Positions 16,834 to 33,949 of a stretch of 46,401 nucleotides of DNA are shown in pieces. Under the pieces are notes generated by a model. That model was not told where the DNA came from, ran no database searches, and was given only the letters and a program-made list of their open reading frames with translations. The position numbers and the translations under genes were made by a program. The stretch's first letter is position 1. Each line of letters begins with the position of its first letter. The DNA is from Candidatus Omnitrophota bacterium. GTDB lineage: Bacteria > Omnitrophota > Omnitrophia > Omnitrophales > Aquincolibacteriaceae. The DNA is taken from NCBI GenBank assembly GCA_903856085.1, contig CAIOAT010000004.1:84722-131122 (forward strand), in the 5' to 3' direction.

Positions 16834-18260
16834 AGTTTATCTCGCTACCTTTTTTTGTGTTTTTCGTGGTCGTCTATGGTTTATATCTGCTATGCAACCA
16901 CCGGCGGCAAAACAGGTTGTTGCTTGTCGCGAGTTATGTGTTTTATGGCTCTTGGGACTGGAGATTTCTGGTCTTGATCTTTGCGTCGACCGTCTTCAAT
17001 TACTTCTGCGGATGGAAGATCGACGCTTCTGCAAACGCGAAGGAAAAAAGAGCGTTCTTGTGGCTTTGCGTTTTAGCGAATTTGACGGTTTTGTTTTTTT
17101 TCAAATATTATCATTTCTTTATAGACGGGCTGTCGGACCTTTCCTCTCTCGCGGGTATTACCTTGCCGATGCGTTTCTTAGAAGTCGTTCTTCCGGTGGG
17201 GTTGTCTTATTACACGTTTCAGGCCATGTCTTATTCGATGGACATCTATCTGAGAGGGTTGAAACCTGTACGTAATTTCTTTGATTTTTCGCTCTTTGTT
17301 TCTTTTTTCCCCAATTTGCTGTCGGGTCCCATAGAAACTGCCCGGCATTTTCTCCCGCAGATTCTTTCTCCTCGGATTGTAACCCTGGAAAAGTTCTACG
17401 AAGGGTGCTATTTGATATTTTGGGGTATTTTTCAAAAAGCTTTTGTCGCGGACAATCTGCTGAAGATCATCACTCCCTTTTTTAATTCCGCCGCGCCCTA
17501 TAACGGCACCCAGGTCTTATTTTCCCTATATGCGGTTGCCATTCAGGTTTTTTGCGATTTTTCCGGATATACGGATATCGCCAGGGGATTGGGAAAATGC
17601 ATGGGGTTTGATCTCAAACTGAATTTCCGGTTACCCTATTTTGTGACTAACATCGCGGATTTCTGGAAAAGATGGCACATGAGTTTCTACGGATGGCTTA
17701 AGGATTATGTCTATATGCCGCTGGTGTTCAGAGCCAAAGAGAAAACCGAGTTTGTGATCTACCGGAGCATGTTCATCATTATGGTTCTGGCGGGGCTGTG
17801 GCATGGGAGTTCCGTGAGGTTTTTGCTGTGGGGCATTTATAATGGCCTGCTTGTGGTGGGGTATCGGTTGCTCCAGCCCGCACTTCGGAAGATCCCACTG
17901 CCTAGGAAGCCCCTCCTCAGGGACGTGTGGTTTGTTATAAGAGTGATTCTTTTTTTTCACCTCGTTTGTTTCGGGATCATCTTGTTCAAAACAAAATCCG
18001 TTGCTCAAGCGTTGCAAATGCTTCAAGCGCTATTTCTGAATTTCAGTTTCGATCTTTCAAGCGCGATGATGCTATACAAAGTGGCTTTTTTCTGCCTTCC
18101 TCTTCTAGCGATCCAGCTCCTGCAATTTTCAAAAGATGATCTGCTCGCTGTTTTGAAGATCAATCCATGGCTCAGGGGATTGATCTATTTTTACTTGTTC
18201 CATCTTATGATGGTGTTTGCCTTCACAGGCGGAAATCAATTTATTTATTTCCAGTTTTAG
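16830..18260 (+). CDS. MBOAT-family membrane O-acyltransferase (AlgI/DltB-like)
   Basis: A 476-residue polytopic membrane protein, about 10-12 helices. Family hallmarks are FWKRWHMSFYGWLKDYVYMP, the re-entrant segment of AlgI/PatA/DltB proteins, and GLWHGSS with the catalytic His at residue 325. The N-terminus (YLLCNHRRQNRLLLVASYVFYGSWD split over two helices) is standard for AlgI-like proteins. It should take an acyl group from the cytoplasmic carrier and pass it across the inner membrane. Translationally coupled upstream (ATGA) and followed after 10 bp by an SGNH gene, the same partnership as DltB-DltD and AlgI-AlgJ. Confidence 0.93.
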   Translation: MKFISLPFFVFFVVVYGLYLLCNHRRQNRLLLVASYVFYGSWDWRFLVLIFASTVFNYFCGWKIDASANAKEKRAFLWLCVLANLTVLFFFKYYHFFIDGLSDLSSLAGITLPMRFLEVVLPVGLSYYTFQAMSYSMDIYLRGLKPVRNFFDFSLFVSFFPNLLSGPIETARHFLPQILSPRIVTLEKFYEGCYLIFWGIFQKAFVADNLLKIITPFFNSAAPYNGTQVLFSLYAVAIQVFCDFSGYTDIARGLGKCMGFDLKLNFRLPYFVTNIADFWKRWHMSFYGWLKDYVYMPLVFRAKEKTEFVIYRSMFIIMVLAGLWHGSSVRFLLWGIYNGLLVVGYRLLQPALRKIPLPRKPLLRDVWFVIRVILFFHLVCFGIILFKTKSVAQALQMLQALFLNFSFDLSSAMMLYKVAFFCLPLLAIQLLQFSKDDLLAVLKINPWLRGLIYFYLFHLMMVFAFTGGNQFIYFQF

Positions 18261-18270
18261 GAATTTTCTT

Positions 18271-19359
18271 ATGCAGAAAGACGCACATGTTTTTTATTTT
18301 AGAGGGATGCCCTGGGCTTTGGTCGGGGCGATTCTTTTAAGTCTTTTGTTCCAGCAAGTCGTTCGGGAGATGCCAGCGTTTTGGCGATTTTGTTATCTCT
18401 ATAGCAATTCTTACACGGATGATTTGTTGAGAGTGGAAGCACAGCTCAATATGATCCCGGGGAACGATCGGCGTCCGAGGGTTTTTATTCTGGGGTCCAG
18501 TTGTGCCAAGAGGGCTTTTGATGTCAATTATTTGACCCATGCATTTCTGAAGGAACACTTGAGTTTTTATAATCTAGGCATTGCCCAAGCGGGTAGTTCC
18601 ATCAACGTATTAATGCAGAAGCGTATGTGGCTCGAAAAAAATCCCGCGATGGTCATTTATATGTTGAAGCCGTACAATTTTTACCAGGAGGAGTATAAAT
18701 TTGACGATGCGCGTTCCTTCGATCCTTCGGTCTTGCCAGTTCTTGTTAAATATCTTGGATATCAAAGATTCTTTTCGAGGTGGACGGTTTTCGTAAGATT
18801 TTACTTGAAGGAAATTTCTTTATTTTATAAGTATAGCAATTTTTTCTCAAGGAGCATCATGCAGGTGGGGATGAGCTGCTTGACTGGGAAAAAAATGCCT
18901 CGGTCGGAGTTGTACCCGCGCGACAGATATCTTCCGCAAGCCTATTTGCTGGATCGGATCAATAGGATGAGCGAAGCGGAGGTCGCGCAATTCAAGGAAA
19001 ACAAATACTCCGCATTGAATAAGGAATGTTTTTGTTTGTTTGCCAAGGACTTGGTTGCAAGGGGAATCAAGCTAGTTGTCGTGAATGCTCCGGTGCATCC
19101 TGTGTTAAATTTAAAAGTACATGGTAATCGGCGCTTTGTGGAAAAATGGGGTTCTGCCTATGACAATTTTTTGCAGAACCAATCAAGGAAAATCGGCTTT
19201 GCCTATGTGGACGCGGAGAGTCTCCCCGATTTGGATGAGACTGATTTTGCGGATACTTTTCATTTGAATCAAAAGGGTAGGGCTGCGTTCTCTCAATTCA
19301 TAGAAAGATATTTGTCAGGTCATTTGCCATCCTCTGCAGGATACAAGAGTGCGGATTAG
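18271..19359 (+). CDS. SGNH/DltD-like membrane-anchored protein, copy 1
   Basis: A 362-residue protein with a single N-terminal membrane helix (about 15-31, WALVGAILLSLLFQQ) and an outward domain. SGNH-hydrolase blocks are present: FILGSSCAKRAFD (Ser76/77 nucleophile region), YNLGIAQAGSS, VNAPVHPV and the C-terminal DTFHLNQKG with Asp328 and His331. This layout matches DltD, AlgJ and AlgX proteins, which complete transfer of an acyl group from the MBOAT protein to an extracellular polymer. The ATG at 18271 is chosen because it directly precedes the anchor. It is paralogous to the gene at 19742. Confidence 0.8.
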   Translation: MQKDAHVFYFRGMPWALVGAILLSLLFQQVVREMPAFWRFCYLYSNSYTDDLLRVEAQLNMIPGNDRRPRVFILGSSCAKRAFDVNYLTHAFLKEHLSFYNLGIAQAGSSINVLMQKRMWLEKNPAMVIYMLKPYNFYQEEYKFDDARSFDPSVLPVLVKYLGYQRFFSRWTVFVRFYLKEISLFYKYSNFFSRSIMQVGMSCLTGKKMPRSELYPRDRYLPQAYLLDRINRMSEAEVAQFKENKYSALNKECFCLFAKDLVARGIKLVVVNAPVHPVLNLKVHGNRRFVEKWGSAYDNFLQNQSRKIGFAYVDAESLPDLDETDFADTFHLNQKGRAAFSQFIERYLSGHLPSSAGYKSAD

Positions 19360-19590
19360 TGGAGTATTCGCTTGCTTTTCGCAAACGGCGCGAAAAGCTC
19401 GGATTTATAAGCAATCCCAAGATCGAAACTTTCTCTGCTTCCCGATCTCTTCCTGATGAAGAATGTGAGGGGAGTGAAAGCGGCCGTGGAGGGACGGGTT
19501 TTGCATGCTTCCAGCCCTATTTTGAATGTGAGGTTCGATTATCCCAGCATGGTGATGTTAAGCGGGGTGGTGTTTTTCCATTCTTCTTCT
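19359..19590 (+). pseudogene. Decayed 5' fragment of recJ left by tandem duplication
   Basis: The GTG at 19359 begins MEYSLAFRKRREKLGF, matching recJ MEYSLAFRKLLAKRGF. After a frameshift near 19450, another frame continues as MKNVRGVKAAVEGRVLHA, matching recJ MKNMKKVKVRIEQAVHA, then IL...DY...GVVFF against the DYDVDGITGVAVL region. Similarity fades at about 19590. It cannot encode a working enzyme. Confidence 0.85.
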
Positions 19591-19741
19591 TTTGGCAATC
19601 CGGCTTTCACTATTTTTAAAAACAATAATTCATTAGCGGTTTGAAGGTCATCAGGGGATGGGTTCATTTTGGCGCATCCTTAAAGGGTGTTTACGTCCGG
19701 GGATAGAATCAATTTATTTATTTCCAGCCTTGGGAATTTTT
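19591..19741. other. Duplication junction and MBOAT tail remnant
   Basis: Non-coding. The left part shows no recognisable gene. From about 19703 the sequence copies the last bases of the MBOAT gene and its spacer (TCAATTTATTTATTTCCAG, then GGGAATTTTTATG), bringing the ribosome-binding context of SGNH copy 2. Confidence 0.75.
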
Positions 19742-20833
19742 ATGAAGAAAGATTCGCAGGTATTTCATTTTAGAAGGATGCCCTGGGCCTTGATCGGGGC
19801 AATCCTTTTAAGTCTTCTATTCCAGCAAGCCGTTCGGGGGACACCGGCGTTTTGGAAATTTTGTTATCTCCATAGGGGGGAGGGTCTGGGAGAGGTCTTA
19901 AGGATGGAGGCGGAGCTTGATAGGCTTCCAGCGAGCAATCAGAATTCGAAAGTTTTTCTTTTGGGGTCCAGCTGCGTTTTCTTTGGTTTGGATGTGAATG
20001 CTCTGGACAAGGCGTTCGCAATGGATCATCTGAACTTTTACAATCTGGGTCTGGGCAATGCGGCTTATCCCGTTAACGCGTTCATGGAGAAAAGCGTATG
20101 GCTCAAAAAAAATCCTGCAATAGTTATTTATATGTTGAACCCCCGCAATATATATACAAACACACTTTTTTTCGATTCGGCGCGTTCTTTCGATCTTTCG
20201 GTTCTGCCCTATCTTGTTCGATATCTAGGCTATCGTGAGGTCCTGTCGAATTGGAAGATCTTCGTGGGGGCTATTTTTGAAAAGTTCTCTTTATTTTATA
20301 AATATAAAGATTTTTTTTCGTCGTTTATTATCGGGCCATGGATCAATAACTCCGCCCCAGAGACGATCGCTCAAACTGATCTGGGGTGGGAGCATAGCGA
20401 ACATCGTTCTCAAGCCCCATTGGTCGGACCGGATAAAAGGGTAGGGAAAAATAGGGCCACCGGATCCAGGGAGAACGGGTACACCGAGCTGAATAAGGCC
20501 TTATTCAGCGTATTTGCCAAAGACTTGGTCGCGAGAGGAATCAAGCTGATCGTCGTGAATGGCCCGTCGCATTTTCTTTTAAAGTTGAACGCTCGTGCTC
20601 GCAGGCGTTTTGTGGAAAAGCTAAGCTCTACGTATAGCGAGTTTTTGCAGAGACAGTCAAGGGAGATAGGATTTGCCTATGTGAATGCGGAGAGTCTTCC
20701 GGATTTGGATGAGACTTGTTTTTCGGATGCTGTCCATTTGAATCAAAAGGGCAGAGCTATGCTCACTCAATTTATAGAAAACTATTTGCATAATTATTTA
20801 TCACTCCCTGTAGGGTACAAGGGTGCGGACTAA
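19742..20833 (+). CDS. SGNH/DltD-like membrane-anchored protein, copy 2
   Basis: A 363-residue paralogue of the previous SGNH protein. It keeps the anchor (WALIGAILLSLLFQQ), the Ser block VFLLGSSCVFFGLD (Ser76/77), YNLGLGNAAY and the C-terminal DAVHLNQKG (Asp329, His332). It has a diverged middle (about 200-240) richer in Pro, Glu and Arg. Frame and catalytic residues are intact, so it is likely functional and perhaps altered in acceptor preference. The start at 19742 is chosen by alignment with copy 1. The sequence from 19658 to 19741 in the same frame is duplicated MBOAT tail, not protein. The stop overlaps the recJ ATG (TAATG). Confidence 0.8.
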   Translation: MKKDSQVFHFRRMPWALIGAILLSLLFQQAVRGTPAFWKFCYLHRGEGLGEVLRMEAELDRLPASNQNSKVFLLGSSCVFFGLDVNALDKAFAMDHLNFYNLGLGNAAYPVNAFMEKSVWLKKNPAIVIYMLNPRNIYTNTLFFDSARSFDLSVLPYLVRYLGYREVLSNWKIFVGAIFEKFSLFYKYKDFFSSFIIGPWINNSAPETIAQTDLGWEHSEHRSQAPLVGPDKRVGKNRATGSRENGYTELNKALFSVFAKDLVARGIKLIVVNGPSHFLLKLNARARRRFVEKLSSTYSEFLQRQSREIGFAYVNAESLPDLDETCFSDAVHLNQKGRAMLTQFIENYLHNYLSLPVGYKGAD

Positions 20834-22470
20834 TGGAATATTCCCTGGCTTTCCGGAAATTGCTCGCAAAACGCGGATTTGCAAGCGACGCTGAGATCGA
20901 GGCTTTTCTTTTTTCCGGGCTCTCCTCGCTCCACGATCCTTTCCTTATGAAGAACATGAAGAAGGTAAAAGTCCGCATCGAACAAGCAGTGCACGCCAAA
21001 GAAAAGATCCTGATCCACGGCGACTACGATGTCGATGGAATCACTGGCGTCGCGGTTCTGGCCCGGACACTCGAAAAACTTGGCGGGGAGTACACGACCT
21101 TTCTTCCGGAACGCGAACGCGACGGTTATGGTGTGAGCGAAATTGCGATCCGCCAAGCGCGAGAGCAGGGCATCGGCTTGATCGTGACGGTCGATTGTGG
21201 GATCACGGCAAAACGTGAGATTGAGATCGCCCGCGCCCATGGTATCGATGTGGTCGTGATCGACCATCATCGTTTGCCCGCGGGCGGCCTGCCCGATACA
21301 CATTTCATTTTGAATCCGCTTCAGGAAGATTGCCCTTATCCTTTCAAGGAGCTTTCTGCTGCAGGGTTGGCGTTCAAGCTAAGCCAGGCCTTGACCGGAA
21401 ATGCGGCGTTCGAGCATCTGGATCTTGTCGCATTGTCCACCATTAGCGATATGGCTCCGCTTACAGGCGAGAATCGCATTCTTGTGAAAAACGGGCTAGC
21501 CATGCTTTCGGAGCGGAAAAATCTCGGGATTCGCGCGCTCGCCGAAGTTTCCAAGATGAAAGCTGTCAAAGTCGATACCGGTCATGTGGGGTTTATCCTT
21601 GGACCCCGGCTGAATGCGGCGGGACGTATGAGCTCCGCGGATACGGCACTTCAACTCTTGATGACAAAAGTACCCCGCGAAGCCGAAAGTCTTGCAAGGA
21701 TTCTGGATGCGGAGAATAAGGCGCGTCAGCGCTCCGAACGTGAGACGACACGAGAGGCGATACGCAAGGCGGAACAGACGGTTAATTTTAATCGCGAGCG
21801 CGTGATCGTGGTCGAGGGGCAAGGCTGGCATCGCGGCGTGATTGGGATCGCGGCCTCGCGCCTCGTGGAAAAATACGAACGGCCGGCGATCGTGATCTCA
21901 GTGGAAGAAGGCGTAGGACGCGGATCGGGCCGTTCCATCAAAAGCTTTCATCTCTTTAACGCGCTTTCCTCCTGCGAAGCAGTTCTCGAAGAATTCGGAG
22001 GGCATGCGCAAGCGGCCGGGCTGACGGTGGCGGAAAAAAATATCCCGCTTCTGCGGGAGAAGATCAACACCTTCGCGTTCGAACATCTTCCCCCGGAAGC
22101 ATTGAAACGTTTCGTAACGGTGGATATGGCATTAAAACCCAACGAATTAACAAGTCATTTTCTCGAGGAGCTCGAACTTCTGGAGCCGTACGGGATTGGG
22201 AACCCGCGGCCTGTCTTTCAAAGCGACGGGCTCGAGCTCAGATCGAAACCGAGGCGCCTTTATGGCGAGACTTATGAGGTGGTGCTGACGGAGGGTTCTC
22301 TGAACTATCAGGCTCATCTTAATGAAAAGCAGATGCTCTTTTGCGAAACGTCCGTACCGGGGGCACATTTTGAGGCAGTCTACTCTGTGAAGACAAAGCA
22401 GTGGAATGGCATGAAGACACTCGTCCTCTCTGTAAAAGAATTCAGGGAGAAGCTTCCGACGTCCTCTTAA
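20833..22470 (+). CDS. recJ: Single-stranded-DNA-specific exonuclease RecJ
   Basis: A 545-residue DHH-family 5'-3' exonuclease acting in recombination and mismatch/base-excision repair. Metal-binding motifs are HGDYDVDGITG (about 62), VTVDCGI, VVIDHH (about 142, the DHH motif) and STISDMAPL. The DHHA1 part has GWHRGVIGIAASRL and GGHAQAAGL. A C-terminal OB-like domain follows. It starts in a TAATG overlap with SGNH copy 2, so it is now coupled to the island. Converges with rpmB, overlapping it by four bases. Confidence 0.97.
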   Translation: MEYSLAFRKLLAKRGFASDAEIEAFLFSGLSSLHDPFLMKNMKKVKVRIEQAVHAKEKILIHGDYDVDGITGVAVLARTLEKLGGEYTTFLPERERDGYGVSEIAIRQAREQGIGLIVTVDCGITAKREIEIARAHGIDVVVIDHHRLPAGGLPDTHFILNPLQEDCPYPFKELSAAGLAFKLSQALTGNAAFEHLDLVALSTISDMAPLTGENRILVKNGLAMLSERKNLGIRALAEVSKMKAVKVDTGHVGFILGPRLNAAGRMSSADTALQLLMTKVPREAESLARILDAENKARQRSERETTREAIRKAEQTVNFNRERVIVVEGQGWHRGVIGIAASRLVEKYERPAIVISVEEGVGRGSGRSIKSFHLFNALSSCEAVLEEFGGHAQAAGLTVAEKNIPLLREKINTFAFEHLPPEALKRFVTVDMALKPNELTSHFLEELELLEPYGIGNPRPVFQSDGLELRSKPRRLYGETYEVVLTEGSLNYQAHLNEKQMLFCETSVPGAHFEAVYSVKTKQWNGMKTLVLSVKEFREKLPTSS

Positions 22471-22730
22471 ACAGCTGCAGGAGCGACGTAAGAACGGCGG
22501 GAAGGGGCCTTCTTGACTTTCCCAGCCTTCAAACAGCTCACGCAGACATTGATGCGGCGCACCGTTCCGTTCAGAAAGACAGCTTTTACTTTCTGAAGGT
22601 TCGGGAAGAAGCGGCGACGCGTAATGCCGGAGATCTTTTTACCGATACCGCCGGTTTTTTTCGCGAGACCGCGACGCACGATCGAATTGCCCGTTAAAGG
22701 CTTCTTCTTGCAGATGGCACATGTTCTCAT
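22467..22730 (-). CDS. rpmB: 50S ribosomal protein L28
   Basis: An 87-residue L28. It starts MRTCAICKKKP with GNSIVRRGLAKKTGGIGKK, then RRRFFPNLQKVKA and RINVCVSCLKAGKVKK. The two CxxC pairs (CAIC, CVSC) make it the zinc-binding form. The C-terminal tail (APSRRSYVAPAAV) is longer than usual. It is the only ribosomal gene on the minus strand here and is read from its own near-consensus promoter, apparently with a very short leader. Confidence 0.96.
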   Translation of the reverse strand: MRTCAICKKKPLTGNSIVRRGLAKKTGGIGKKISGITRRRFFPNLQKVKAVFLNGTVRRINVCVSCLKAGKVKKAPSRRSYVAPAAV

Positions 22731-22739
22731 AGGCCGGCT

Positions 22740-22767
22740 ATTATAGTGAGGAGATGTTTCTTGGCAA
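22740..22767 (-). promoter_or_regulatory. Promoter of rpmB, minus strand
   Basis: Minus strand TTGCCA (22767-22762), 16 bp, then a perfect TATAAT (22745-22740), only 9 bp before the rpmB start codon. Its -35 is the same TTGGCAA block used by the divergent promoter. Confidence 0.75.
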
Positions 22768-22789
22768 GCGGTTTTTTCTGATATATACT
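22761..22789 (+). promoter_or_regulatory. Promoter of the CBM48-glgA genes
   Basis: TTGGCA (22761-22766), 17 bp, TATACT (22784-22789). About 55 bp of leader precedes the CBM48 gene, with an AAGAAGGAG ribosome site. The -35 overlaps the rpmB -35 on the opposite strand. Confidence 0.75.
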
Positions 22790-22849
22790 CACCTCCGCTG
22801 CAATTTTTTTACGTGTATTTTCCACTCTAAAACCAAGAAGGAGTTCATT

Positions 22850-23155
22850 ATGGCAAAGTTGACGACGAAATGTTGCTCCAGCACGAGCACTTGCGAAAAG
22901 ACCTCAGATTTCAAATTCTACGCCCCTCAGGCCAAAAAGGTCGAGCTTGGCGGTGATTTTAATAACTGGAAAGCGGACAAGAATCCTCTCAAAAAAGACG
23001 CGGCTGGGAATTGGAAGACCTCTTTGAAGCTCAAGAGCGGGCGTTATCAATACCGCTATCTCGTGGATGGGATCTGGCAGAACGCGCAAGAGCCGGTCGA
23101 ATGCGTTCCCAACGCCTTCGGAAGCTGGAATTGCGTTATCGAAGTCGCGAAATAA
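22850..23155 (+). CDS. Small stand-alone CBM48/glycogen-binding domain protein
   Basis: A 101-residue protein that is almost only an isoamylase-N/AMPK-type glycogen-binding module (about 20-101). It has FKFYAPQAKKVELGGDFNNW, WKTSLKLKSGRYQYRYLVDG and a C-terminal NAFGSWNCVIEV. The N-terminus is Cys-rich (KCCSSTSTC), unusual for this fold. The ATG at 22850 follows a strong ribosome site; the open frame upstream to 22754 covers the promoter and is rejected. Immediately upstream of glycogen synthase, it probably binds glycogen or regulates/localises GlgA. No catalytic domain is present. Confidence 0.88.
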   Translation: MAKLTTKCCSSTSTCEKTSDFKFYAPQAKKVELGGDFNNWKADKNPLKKDAAGNWKTSLKLKSGRYQYRYLVDGIWQNAQEPVECVPNAFGSWNCVIEVAK

Positions 23156-23177: not shown

Positions 23178-24650
23178 TTGAAGATCCTTTTCATCAGTTC
23201 TGAAATGGCCCCTTTCGCCAAGACCGGGGGGCTTGGGGATGTTGTCGGCTCCCTCGCCGGTGCGGTTCGCGCCTTAGGCCATGAAGTGTCGGTCTTCTTG
23301 CCGCGCTACCGCTCGATCGACATCCAACAGTGGGAACTCGAAACCGCGATCGATTATTTCGAATTGATCGTCGGGAATCAACTCGAGGCAACACGTATTT
23401 TTTCCAAAAAACTCGACAATGGGGTCAAAGTCTATTTTGTCGAACATCCCGATTATTTTATGCGCGAGGAACTTTACGGAACACTCGTGGGGGATTATCA
23501 GGATAACGACCGCCGTTTCACTTATTTCCAGCGGGCCGCACTCAAGGCTGCTGAAAAATTGAAACTAGCCCCCGACATTGTCCATTGCCACGACTGGCAG
23601 ACCGGCCTCATTCCGGTGTATCTCAAGACCACGGAAACGGGATACGCCCCCTTCCAAAAAGCGCGGAGCGTATTCACTATCCACAATCTTGCGTACCAGG
23701 GGAATTTCCCTCCCGATTCATTTCCGGCGACGGGGTTGGGTTGGGAATTTTACAAGTCCGACCTGCTGGAATTTTACGGTAAGTTTAGTTTTATGAAGGG
23801 CGGGCTTGTGTTTGCCGACGCCGTAACGACTGTGAGCGAACGCTATAGCCATGAGATCCAGACCAAGGAATTTGGGTGCGGGATGGAAGGTGTGATGGTC
23901 GCGCGTAAGGATAGCGTTACTGGGATCGTGAATGGGATCGACCCGAAGGATTGGGATCCAGCCACCGATCCGGATATTGACGCGAAGTACGATTTAAAAG
24001 ATCTTTCAGGGAAAAAAATAAACAAGGCCGCGCTCCAGAAAGAGAACGGTTTCAAGATCGATCCGAATGTGCCTCTCCTGGGGTTTGTGGCGCGTCTCGT
24101 GGACCAGAAGGGATTGGATATTTTGGTTCCGGTGCTGGAGCAACTTTCCCAGCAGCAGGACGTTCAAATGGTGTTGCTCGGGACCGGCGAAGATCAGTAC
24201 CATCAGATCCTGCGGGACCTTGCGAAGAAAAATAAAAAGTGGTTCGGGGTGCACATCCTGTTCGACCCGAAGATGGCCAAAAAGATTTATGCGGGATCCG
24301 ATATGCTGCTCATCCCTTCCTATTATGAACCGTGCGGGCTGGGGCAGATCATCGGGCTTCGTTTTGGAACGGTTCCGATTGTTCGCGCAACCGGCGGCTT
24401 GGCGGATACCATTCAGAATTTCGAGCCCACGTCCCAAAAAGGGAACGGATTTATTTTTGAGGATTATACGAGCGATGCGTTGCATGCCGTCCTGCTTCGT
24501 GCGGTCAAGACGTTCAAGCAAGAGAAACTTTGGAAGTCGCTCGTGAAGAACGCGATGGAAAGCGATTTTTCGTGGGATGCTTCAGCCAGAAAATATGAGA
24601 AGCTTTACGAATCCGTAAAGCGGCGTCCCTTCAAGATCGAGAAAAACTAA
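23178..24650 (+). CDS. glgA: Glycogen synthase
   Basis: A 490-residue GT5 glycosyltransferase extending alpha-1,4-glucan from ADP-glucose (or UDP-glucose). The start codon is TTG at 23178, placing the ADP-glucose-binding KTGGLGDV at Lys15 as in other GlgA. Other hallmarks are HCHDWQTGLIPVYLK, VFTIHNLAYQG, GIVNGID and the C-terminal PSYYEPCGLGQIIGLRFGTVPIVRATGGLADT. It lies 22 bp after the CBM48 gene on one transcript. Length is normal. Confidence 0.96.
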   Translation: MKILFISSEMAPFAKTGGLGDVVGSLAGAVRALGHEVSVFLPRYRSIDIQQWELETAIDYFELIVGNQLEATRIFSKKLDNGVKVYFVEHPDYFMREELYGTLVGDYQDNDRRFTYFQRAALKAAEKLKLAPDIVHCHDWQTGLIPVYLKTTETGYAPFQKARSVFTIHNLAYQGNFPPDSFPATGLGWEFYKSDLLEFYGKFSFMKGGLVFADAVTTVSERYSHEIQTKEFGCGMEGVMVARKDSVTGIVNGIDPKDWDPATDPDIDAKYDLKDLSGKKINKAALQKENGFKIDPNVPLLGFVARLVDQKGLDILVPVLEQLSQQQDVQMVLLGTGEDQYHQILRDLAKKNKKWFGVHILFDPKMAKKIYAGSDMLLIPSYYEPCGLGQIIGLRFGTVPIVRATGGLADTIQNFEPTSQKGNGFIFEDYTSDALHAVLLRAVKTFKQEKLWKSLVKNAMESDFSWDASARKYEKLYESVKRRPFKIEKN

Positions 24651-28999: not shown

Positions 29000-29208
29000 T
29001 GCGGTTCCAATACCTTTCAATTTCAGAAAATCTGAAATTGGGGCCGTCCAAACTACCCTTTTGGAAAAGAAGTAAAGAGTTTGGGCGGTCGTTGTTTCTC
29101 GGCCTGCTTTTTCTCGTGCTTGTTTTCGTTCTGACCGGTTGCCAAGGATTTTTGGACGATTACAACTACCATCCTGTTGGGCCGATGCAGTCCAGTCCGA
29201 ACCAGTGA
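28999..29208 (+). CDS. Very small lipoprotein with repeat-encoded N-terminus
   Basis: A 69-residue predicted lipoprotein, not recognised. A hydrophobic run (about 32-46) ends in lipobox VLTGC with Cys48, followed by only about 20 mature residues (QGFLDDYNYHPVGPM...). The ATG overlaps the rpsI stop (TAATG), giving translational coupling. Residues 2-31 are encoded by a palindromic element (29003-29090), which supplies the positive region (KRSKEFGR) before the hydrophobic stretch. Without it only the weak TTG at about 29092 remains as start. It could be a real co-opted gene or a chance frame; the clean lipobox favours the former. Confidence 0.55.
   Translation: MRFQYLSISENLKLGPSKLPFWKRSKEFGRSLFLGLLFLVLVFVLTGCQGFLDDYNYHPVGPMQSSPNQ
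29003..29090 (-). repeat. Composite palindromic element copy E2
   Basis: The left half (GGTTCCAATACC...GAAATTGGGGCC) matches the reverse complement of the copy at 40996-41040 at GGTYCCAATACC, TCAAT and ATTGGGGCCG. The right half is the CCGTCCAAACT/AGTTTGGGCGG hairpin (29044-29088). It starts three bases after the rpsI stop. Confidence 0.8.
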
Positions 29209-32794: not shown

Positions 32795-32848
32795 GTCATG
32801 AGCGCACGTTTTTTTTGATAAAAGATGATCATGGCGTAACTTCTTAAA

Positions 32849-32877
32849 TTGACAAAGGATAGAGCCATTTCTATAAT
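32849..32877 (+). promoter_or_regulatory. Perfect sigma-70 promoter of the arginine genes
   Basis: TTGACA (32849-32854), 17 bp, TATAAT (32872-32877), all 12 consensus bases. The predicted start near 32884 leaves about 43 bases of leader with AAAGGAG. No ARG-box-like dyad was recognised. Confidence 0.93.
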
Positions 32878-32926
32878 ACCGAACTTGCTAGTCAGTAATG
32901 CTTTTAAAGGAGAAAAACACACTCAA

Positions 32927-33949
32927 ATGTTGAATTGTGCGGTTCTTGGCGCCACGGGATACACTGGAGCCGAACTCACGAAGCTGCTTCTGGCCCATCC
33001 CCATGTCCGGGTCTCCCTTCTTACCACCCGGCAGGAAAAACCCATAGCCCTTCGCGAAGTCTTGCCGTCGGTCGCAAAAGACATCAAACTTGAAATTACC
33101 CCTTATTCTTTTGATGCGGTGAAGAAAAAGGCGGACGTTGTTTTTTTGTGTCTACCGCACACTGAGGCTATGGCCGCCGCCGAGCAGCTTCTTGCGGCGG
33201 GCAAGATCGTGATCGATCTTTCTGCGGATTTTCGTCTGAGAGACAGGAAGATTTATGAGAAATGGTATGGCGTGAATCATGTTGCGCCCCAGTATCTTTC
33301 TAAGGCGGTTTATGGGCTTTGCGAGGTGTACAGAGAACAGATTAAAAAAGCGGACCTGATCGCCAATCCCGGGTGTTATCCCACAGGGCCGTCACTTGCG
33401 CTTATCCCGCTTCTTAAGAAAAAACTGATCGATTTCAGGTCTATTATTATCAACGCGGCATCCGGCGTCAGCGGTGCCGGGAAGAAGCTTGCGACCACGA
33501 CTCATTTCTGCGAGGCAAGCGAAAATTATAGCGCCTACAAGGTGAACCGGCATCAGCATACGCCCGAGATCGAACAGACGCTTTCTGCGGCGGCCGGAAA
33601 ACCTGTAAAGATTACGTTCGTGCCGCATCTGCTGCCTGTGAACCGGGGCATTCTTGCAACGATCTATGCTCAAAAGACGGCGAAGACGACAGAAGATGGA
33701 ATTCGGAAGACTCTGGAAAGAGCCTACCAGCAAGCGCCTTTCGTGAGGGTCAAGCCGGCGGGGCAGTACCCGTCCCTGAAGGATGTGCAGCACACAAATT
33801 TTTGTGACATAGGCGTCAGCGTCCAGAAAGAAACGGGGCGCGTGGTGATCATCACGGCGATCGATAATCTTCTCAAGGGTGCGGCGGGACAGGCCGTTCA
33901 GAACATGAACCTCCGGTTCGGTTTTCCGGAAGAAGCGGGGCTCCTTTAG
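32927..33949 (+). CDS. argC: N-acetyl-gamma-glutamyl-phosphate reductase
   Basis: A 340-residue ArgC reducing N-acetylglutamyl phosphate. NADP fold VLGATGYTGAELTKLL, LSADFRLRD, active-site Cys in NPGCYPTGP, ASGVSGAGKK, the HRHQHTPEI-type segment (NRHQHTPEI) and VPHLLPVNRGILATIY. The ATG at 32927 places the dinucleotide fold at the N-terminus as normal. The in-frame TTG at 32849 is the -35 box and cannot be the start. First gene of argC-J-B-D-F-G-H. Confidence 0.96.
   Translation: MLNCAVLGATGYTGAELTKLLLAHPHVRVSLLTTRQEKPIALREVLPSVAKDIKLEITPYSFDAVKKKADVVFLCLPHTEAMAAAEQLLAAGKIVIDLSADFRLRDRKIYEKWYGVNHVAPQYLSKAVYGLCEVYREQIKKADLIANPGCYPTGPSLALIPLLKKKLIDFRSIIINAASGVSGAGKKLATTTHFCEASENYSAYKVNRHQHTPEIEQTLSAAAGKPVKITFVPHLLPVNRGILATIYAQKTAKTTEDGIRKTLERAYQQAPFVRVKPAGQYPSLKDVQHTNFCDIGVSVQKETGRVVIITAIDNLLKGAAGQAVQNMNLRFGFPEEAGLL

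Follow-up and report, generated by a model that had tools for sequence, protein, structure and literature searches.

Predicted divergent promoters of rpmB and glgA share one −35 box throughout a family of Omnitrophota

In one family of Candidatus Omnitrophota, the gene for ribosomal protein L28 (rpmB) and the genes for a glycogen-binding protein and glycogen synthase (CBM48-glgA) are probably transcribed from a fused divergent promoter, in which two housekeeping promoters stand back to back on one −35 box, with a leaderless rpmB to the left, CBM48-glgA to the right, and evolutionary lock-in as the main consequence of sharing the box. The locus lies in a window of 46,401 nucleotides (the whole stretch of DNA that was analyzed) on contig C4 of the source genome (G000), a 2.36-Mb draft that is 95.3% complete. 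The gene order is recJ (20833–22470, + strand; assigned from its open reading frame, Pfam domain, and the loci of relatives), rpmB (22467–22730, − strand; an open reading frame of 87 residues with Pfam domain PF00830), a gene for a free-standing CBM48/AMPK1_CBM glycogen-binding domain protein of 101 residues (22850–23155, + strand), and the glycogen/starch synthase gene glgA (23178–24650, + strand), the last two assigned from open reading frames and domain matches. The gap between rpmB and the CBM48 gene measures 119 bp, and the Shine-Dalgarno sequence of the latter, AAGAAGGAG (22835–22843, + strand), sits 6 nt upstream of its ATG. Next to this locus, at 18217–20833, there are two similar adjoining genes of 380 and 391 residues (judged by eye). 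Behind each of them comes a start resembling that of recJ (MEYSLAFRK...), in the first case in a short frame (19359–19619); the arrangement resembles a tandem duplication that also copied the 5′ end of recJ.

The first-pass annotation had placed two divergent promoters on a single −35 block in the rpmB-CBM48 gap, and its coordinates, hexamers, and spacers of 16 and 17 bp are exact. On the − strand, TTGCCA (22767–22762) and TATAAT (22745–22740) are separated by a 16-bp spacer and score 11/12 as a promoter of rpmB; on the + strand, TTGGCA (22761–22766) and TATACT (22784–22789) are separated by 17 bp and score 10/12. Sequence, promoter scan, and relatives agree on both −35 hexamers. In each direction, the DNA has the TTGACA-like and TATAAT-like hexamers, 16–18 bp apart, of a sigma-70/sigma-A promoter, with the −35 deviating from consensus by one base. 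The 7-mer TTGGCAA (22761–22767) is read by both promoters, and 5 bp of it are common to both −35 hexamers. It is a near-palindrome with an unmatched center base, and extends to CTTG-G-CAAG (CTTGGCAAG, 22760–22768). A stretch of 38 bp (22746–22783) separates the two −10s, and the predicted transcription starts, at 22730–22734 on the left and 22796 on the right, are ~62–66 bp apart. Start-site behavior is uncertain because the DNA just past both −10s is GC-rich (mean 0.79 on the left and 0.63 on the right).

Coincident promoters of this strength are rare in the sampled part of the genome. Within 2.5 kb, the scan picked out 5 promoter-like sites, of which these two score highest; dinucleotide shuffles yield a mean of 1.2, and no further promoter-like site falls in the rpmB-CBM48 gap. 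In 675,902 sampled bases (window included), they form the only pair in which both promoters score at least 10/12 and the −35s are offset by no more than 3 bp; the mean expectation from 20 simulated sequences of the same length, built with the base-step frequencies of the genome, is 0.15. Only this strong pair stands out, since at a looser cut of 9/12 the same bases contain 3 pairs vs 1.5 simulated. A weaker second site is found at 32828–32877 of the window, where a perfect TTGACA-17-TATAAT precedes the frame at 32849–33949 (argC by eye) and a leftward partner scoring 9/12 shares its −35; G002, a family member, has these 50 bases too. The motif TTGGCAAG-N3-T6 has one perfect match in the source genome, plus one with 3 mismatches, and the single perfect match rules it out as a common promoter type. 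Across 49 class genomes, the pattern ATTATA-N15-TTGNCAA-N16-TATAMT occurs exactly in 24, exclusively at the rpmB-CBM48/glgA locus. There, G002 differs from the pattern by one mismatch. A further 35 matches (one site being counted on both strands) fall elsewhere, each with 1–2 mismatches, and a reversed control pattern gave 13 matches in these 49 genomes. A −35 consensus for the whole genome, drawn from a sample of upstream regions, was dropped, as it comprised only 30 candidates with too uncertain start codons.

Conservation of the block in relatives, which the first-pass annotation had named as a check, holds throughout the family. The family set comprised 27 genomes, of which G016, having no rpmB in its assembly, was left out of all family counts. 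The remaining 26 (24 family loci, L051, which is the locus of G002, and G023) share ancestry and do not represent 26 independent events; many other contig loci duplicate those of the numbered genomes. In 26/26 family genomes having rpmB, TTGGCAAG is present and flanked by both −10s, so that core elements of the two promoters lie on the same DNA at every family locus. The rightward spacing is 17 bp in all 26, with TATAMT as the −10 in 25/26 (TATAAT in relatives, and TACAAT once, in G002). The leftward spacing is 16 bp in 25/26, with ATTATA on the + strand at the same offset, the exception being G026, which has ATAATA and one base more (17). Eight of the nine columns of CTTGGCAAG are invariant, and its first C is found in 25/26. 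Across the 26 sequences, conservation reaches 0.96 or above in 29 of 50 columns of the block; columns 15–34 bp past the rightward −10 never rise above 0.46, which is near random. The conserved columns include spacer positions, namely a T6 tract in the rightward spacer (22772–22777, + strand), perfect in 25/26, and the A, G, and T at 22752, 22753, and 22755 of an AGATG-like stretch in the leftward spacer (22752–22756; A 0.96, G 0.92, A 0.77, T 1.00, G 0.77). This exceeds what sharing a −35 alone demands. Conservation as protein was considered, as the CBM48 frame is open across the block back to an ATG at 22754, but it is ruled out because the rpmB-CBM48 distances among relatives differ by non-multiples of three. 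The gene pair, too, is kept together: rpmB is adjacent to glgA/CBM48 in 26/26 family genomes vs 13/19 outside the family (Fisher P 0.003, kinship ignored). In G023 (L132), the CBM48 gene has been lost between the common promoter and glgA, and the block is kept before glgA.

As a control we used the promoter of another housekeeping gene, rplM, from the same family; this is a single gene, and its promoter was located by the best TTGACA/TATAAT match, which biases it toward consensus. From 27 genomes, two without a match and L210, with only 28 nt upstream, were dropped to give 24; an earlier scan limited to 140 nt upstream had located 17/25 promoters. The rplM −35 is TTGACA in 24/24. An invariant −35 is thus ordinary for a housekeeping promoter here, that of rplM being equally invariant. 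The center of the common box, however, is G (C on the opposite strand) in 26/26, whereas the corresponding position 4 of the rplM −35 is A in 24/24. A center A or T would perfect one −35 while the other stayed at 5/6, and neither is seen in the 26 sequences. Since rplM reads TTGACA throughout, the fixed G/C center is apparently not a preference of −35s in this family at large; it would fit a compromise between the two directions, or a further constraint from binding. Across the family, the rplM promoter joins TTGACA by a spacer of 17/18 to a TATACT-like −10; TG immediately precedes the final base of the spacer, and CTT usually follows the −10 at a distance of ~8 nt. The copy in the window lies upstream of 28167.

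Leaderless genes have no 5′ leader and no Shine-Dalgarno sequence, and their −10 lies directly upstream of the start codon. Judging from the geometry of its promoter, rpmB is probably such a gene, a feature that the first-pass annotation overlooked. Only 9 nt (22731–22739, − strand), with no Shine-Dalgarno sequence among them, separate the leftward −10 from the rpmB ATG, which predicts a leaderless start or a leader of 0–4 nt. The same sequence features, a −10 a few nucleotides before the start codon and no Shine-Dalgarno-like word, are found in 24/26 family genomes, where the gap from TATAAT to ATG is 8–10 nt. In the two exceptions, G015 (L010) and G002 (L051), an 81-bp dispersed repeat lies between −10 and ATG, giving a gap of 92 nt, and these are the only family members with a Shine-Dalgarno-like word before rpmB. 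The repeat contains inverted-repeat stretches, lies at an identical position by the start of rpmB in two genera, and supplies a leader there; it has kin in the window at 29007–29069 and, more weakly, at 2208–2253, as well as partial copies in many sampled stretches. Among 556 open reading frames, −10-like words occur 22 times at 6–11 nt before the chosen starts vs 7 times at 12–20 nt, which is weak evidence for a genome-wide leaderless class.

Separated promoters in relatives, which the first-pass annotation had accepted as grounds for refuting its proposal, are found outside the family and not inside it, and the merger can therefore be dated to the family. The outgroups were 22 class genomes, in 19 of which rpmB was found, representing nine other families (G028, G032, and G033 gave no rpmB match). 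In 13/19, glgA or CBM48 still lies divergently within 700 bp of rpmB; in 6 it does not. Among the best-scoring promoter picks, which are best matches to the consensus and carry less certainty than the family block, −35s coincide in 0/13 of the adjacent-gene outgroups. The distance from −35 to −35 is 18 bp in G045, 31 bp in G035, 35 bp in G034, 37 bp in G031 and, with the second-best leftward pick, in G036, and larger in others. In G044, the second-best picks coincide, and both are weak (ATGGCT and AAGCCA). Promoters of one outgroup family, f4, interleave: in G039 the rightward −35 is at 24–29 and the leftward one at 32–37 of a 71-bp gap, and in G038 the hexamers are weaker and the picks either abut or have 1 bp in common. 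In f4 rpmB is already separated by a 9-nt gap from its −10, and in G030 the gap is 7 nt. Three loci without the block (L042, L044, and L049) proved to be those of outgroups G039, G030, and G038, as their DNA upstream of rpmB is identical. TTGCAA is the top-scoring rightward −35 in 5/13 outgroups; this perfect palindrome lacks just one base of TTGGCAA, and the common box could have been derived from it by a one-base insertion. Exact sharing of the −35 looks like a family-level innovation, and the simplest history would run from the ancestral gene order with separate promoters, through compaction and loss of the rpmB leader, to coincident −35s in the family. Outgroups that have the same gene order and non-coincident promoters offer a before/after comparison of promoter fusion, covering how such a fusion arises, how it constrains bases, and how it may lock gene order. 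In one of them, G034 (L170), there are two rpmB copies ~5.6 kb apart, with immediately upstream DNA that appears near-identical.

We infer that both promoters fire, that they start near the predicted positions, and that they compete sterically. Two promoters of the housekeeping sigma type would stand back to back on the near-palindrome CTTG-G-CAAG. The leftward one, with TATAAT, would give an rpmB transcript beginning at the ATG or a few bases from it; the rightward one, with the T6 spacer and TATACT, would drive CBM48-glgA, whose transcript would have a conventional leader with a Shine-Dalgarno sequence. Polymerase could occupy the site in one orientation at a time, so both start rates would draw on one site, and nearly every base of the box would serve two genes, which would freeze box, spacing, and gene order across the family. 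The reading that appears best supported is that the box is used twice and that evolutionary lock-in results; lock-in is favored because the gene pair is joined in 26/26 family genomes and separated in 6/19 outside. Partial competition would rank second to lock-in, and an on/off switch is not indicated. That polymerase cannot use both orientations at once, as the first-pass annotation had argued, follows from the geometry, because both promoters use coincident −35 boxes; such exclusion may do no more than split or reduce the rates of initiation. Its further claim, that ribosome supply would exclude glycogen synthesis and vice versa, is too strong, since E. coli pairs compete only when one side is strong. 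According to PMC12825309, five E. coli pairs that share a −10, and thus overlap more closely, show little competition because their basal activity is too low, and strong activation of one direction represses the partner.

These E. coli data bear in both senses on a see-saw switch, in which strong rpmB initiation would occlude glgA during growth and free it on arrest, linking ribosomes to storage. The footprints necessarily overlap, sharing is fixed in 26/26, and overlapping divergent promoters can switch according to theory cited together with experiments in a study of the pLS20 promoters Pr and Pc (PMC4207663). Each −35, however, matches only 5/6, no one-sided regulator was found, and the obvious growth signal is removed with RelA_SpoT (PF04607), which was not found in the source genome and occurs in only 3/49 class genomes (the source genome included) and 1/24 of the most complete ones, making such a switch quite unlikely. 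The class seems to be without the usual ppGpp synthetase; a DksA/TraR-type zinc finger is present in the source genome. Because of this distribution of RelA_SpoT, ppGpp-driven control of the locus is unlikely, and a ppGpp see-saw that takes the GC-rich stretch past the rpmB −10 for a stringent promoter is ruled out; it is also countered by the rightward side, which is GC-rich too. A regulator-free balance between growth and storage in bacteria apparently without RelA/SpoT, with polymerase orientation on a balanced, off-consensus −35 splitting initiation between leaderless rpmB and glgA such that raising one lowers the other, is rather improbable as well. If competition did matter in vivo, ribosome supply would be tied to carbon storage without a signaling molecule.

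The palindrome might in addition be an operator, with a regulator dimer on CTTGGCAAG and the flanking AGATG and T6 controlling both promoters. This would account for a center base and flanking C/G that are fixed though needed by neither hexamer, and for the invariant positions within the spacers, and it agrees with the different, consensus −35 of rplM. Yet the flanks lack mirror symmetry about the palindrome, TTGGCAAG-N3-T6 is perfect only once in the source genome, and no regulon is visible in the 676-kb sample, where, outside long open reading frames, CTTG[GC]CAAG occurs at one other place and CTTG[AT]CAAG at one. Moreover, 9 bp is short for a dimer binding site. We consider an operator unlikely. 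It is most improbable that just one promoter is genuine, with the second hexamer pair arising by coincidence. Consensus matches are no proof, and −35-like and −10-like boxes are often inert, as reported in PMC11661796, but both −10s keep a fixed distance from the box in 26/26 (one leftward spacing being 17) while DNA further downstream is unconserved, each promoter points at a conserved gene, and the gap holds no other promoter-like site.

Overlapping divergent promoters are already known; what would be new here is the sharing of the −35 alone, conserved through a family. Our literature search, with most subscription journals outside its range, found no paper joining rpmB, glgA, and "divergent", none on Omnitrophota with ppGpp and, among the matches listed, none on Omnitrophota with mapped starts; the listed titles and abstract openings described no conserved promoter pair sharing only a −35, and older single cases may exist. 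Like known bacterial leaderless genes, rpmB would have no 5′ leader, with its −10 by the start codon and no Shine-Dalgarno sequence; unlike them, the trait would here belong to rpmB in 24/26 genomes of one family and be tied to a common promoter. This probable leaderless rpmB provides a second testable point. The bidirectional promoters described by Warman, Grainger, and co-workers (PMC12825309, PMC10268837) likewise transcribe divergently from one pseudo-symmetric element, as predicted here, with polymerase in one orientation at a time, as the geometry requires here. On the definition in these papers, however, such promoters share a −10 and start 7–25 bp apart, whereas the present pair shares the −35, has separate −10s facing outward and predicted starts ~62–66 bp apart, and thus falls outside that definition. 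Pr and Pc of pLS20 (PMC4207663) are also divergent promoters with coinciding elements, where polymerase itself is a possible competitor, but in the reading favored by the authors the −10 of one lies on the −35 of the other, in contrast to −35 on −35 here. Moreover, pLS20 combines DNA looping with a dedicated regulator, Rco; no regulator is known for the present promoters, and both genes are housekeeping genes. No regulator with opposite effects is encoded in the gene pair and no repeated operator occurs in the 676-kb sample, an unlinked regulator being possible. As far as the cited texts describe them, in the published comparison cases the −10 is common to both promoters or a regulator is paired with the gene it controls, while in this family two housekeeping genes of unrelated function appear to be fused via one −35 and frozen in that state throughout.
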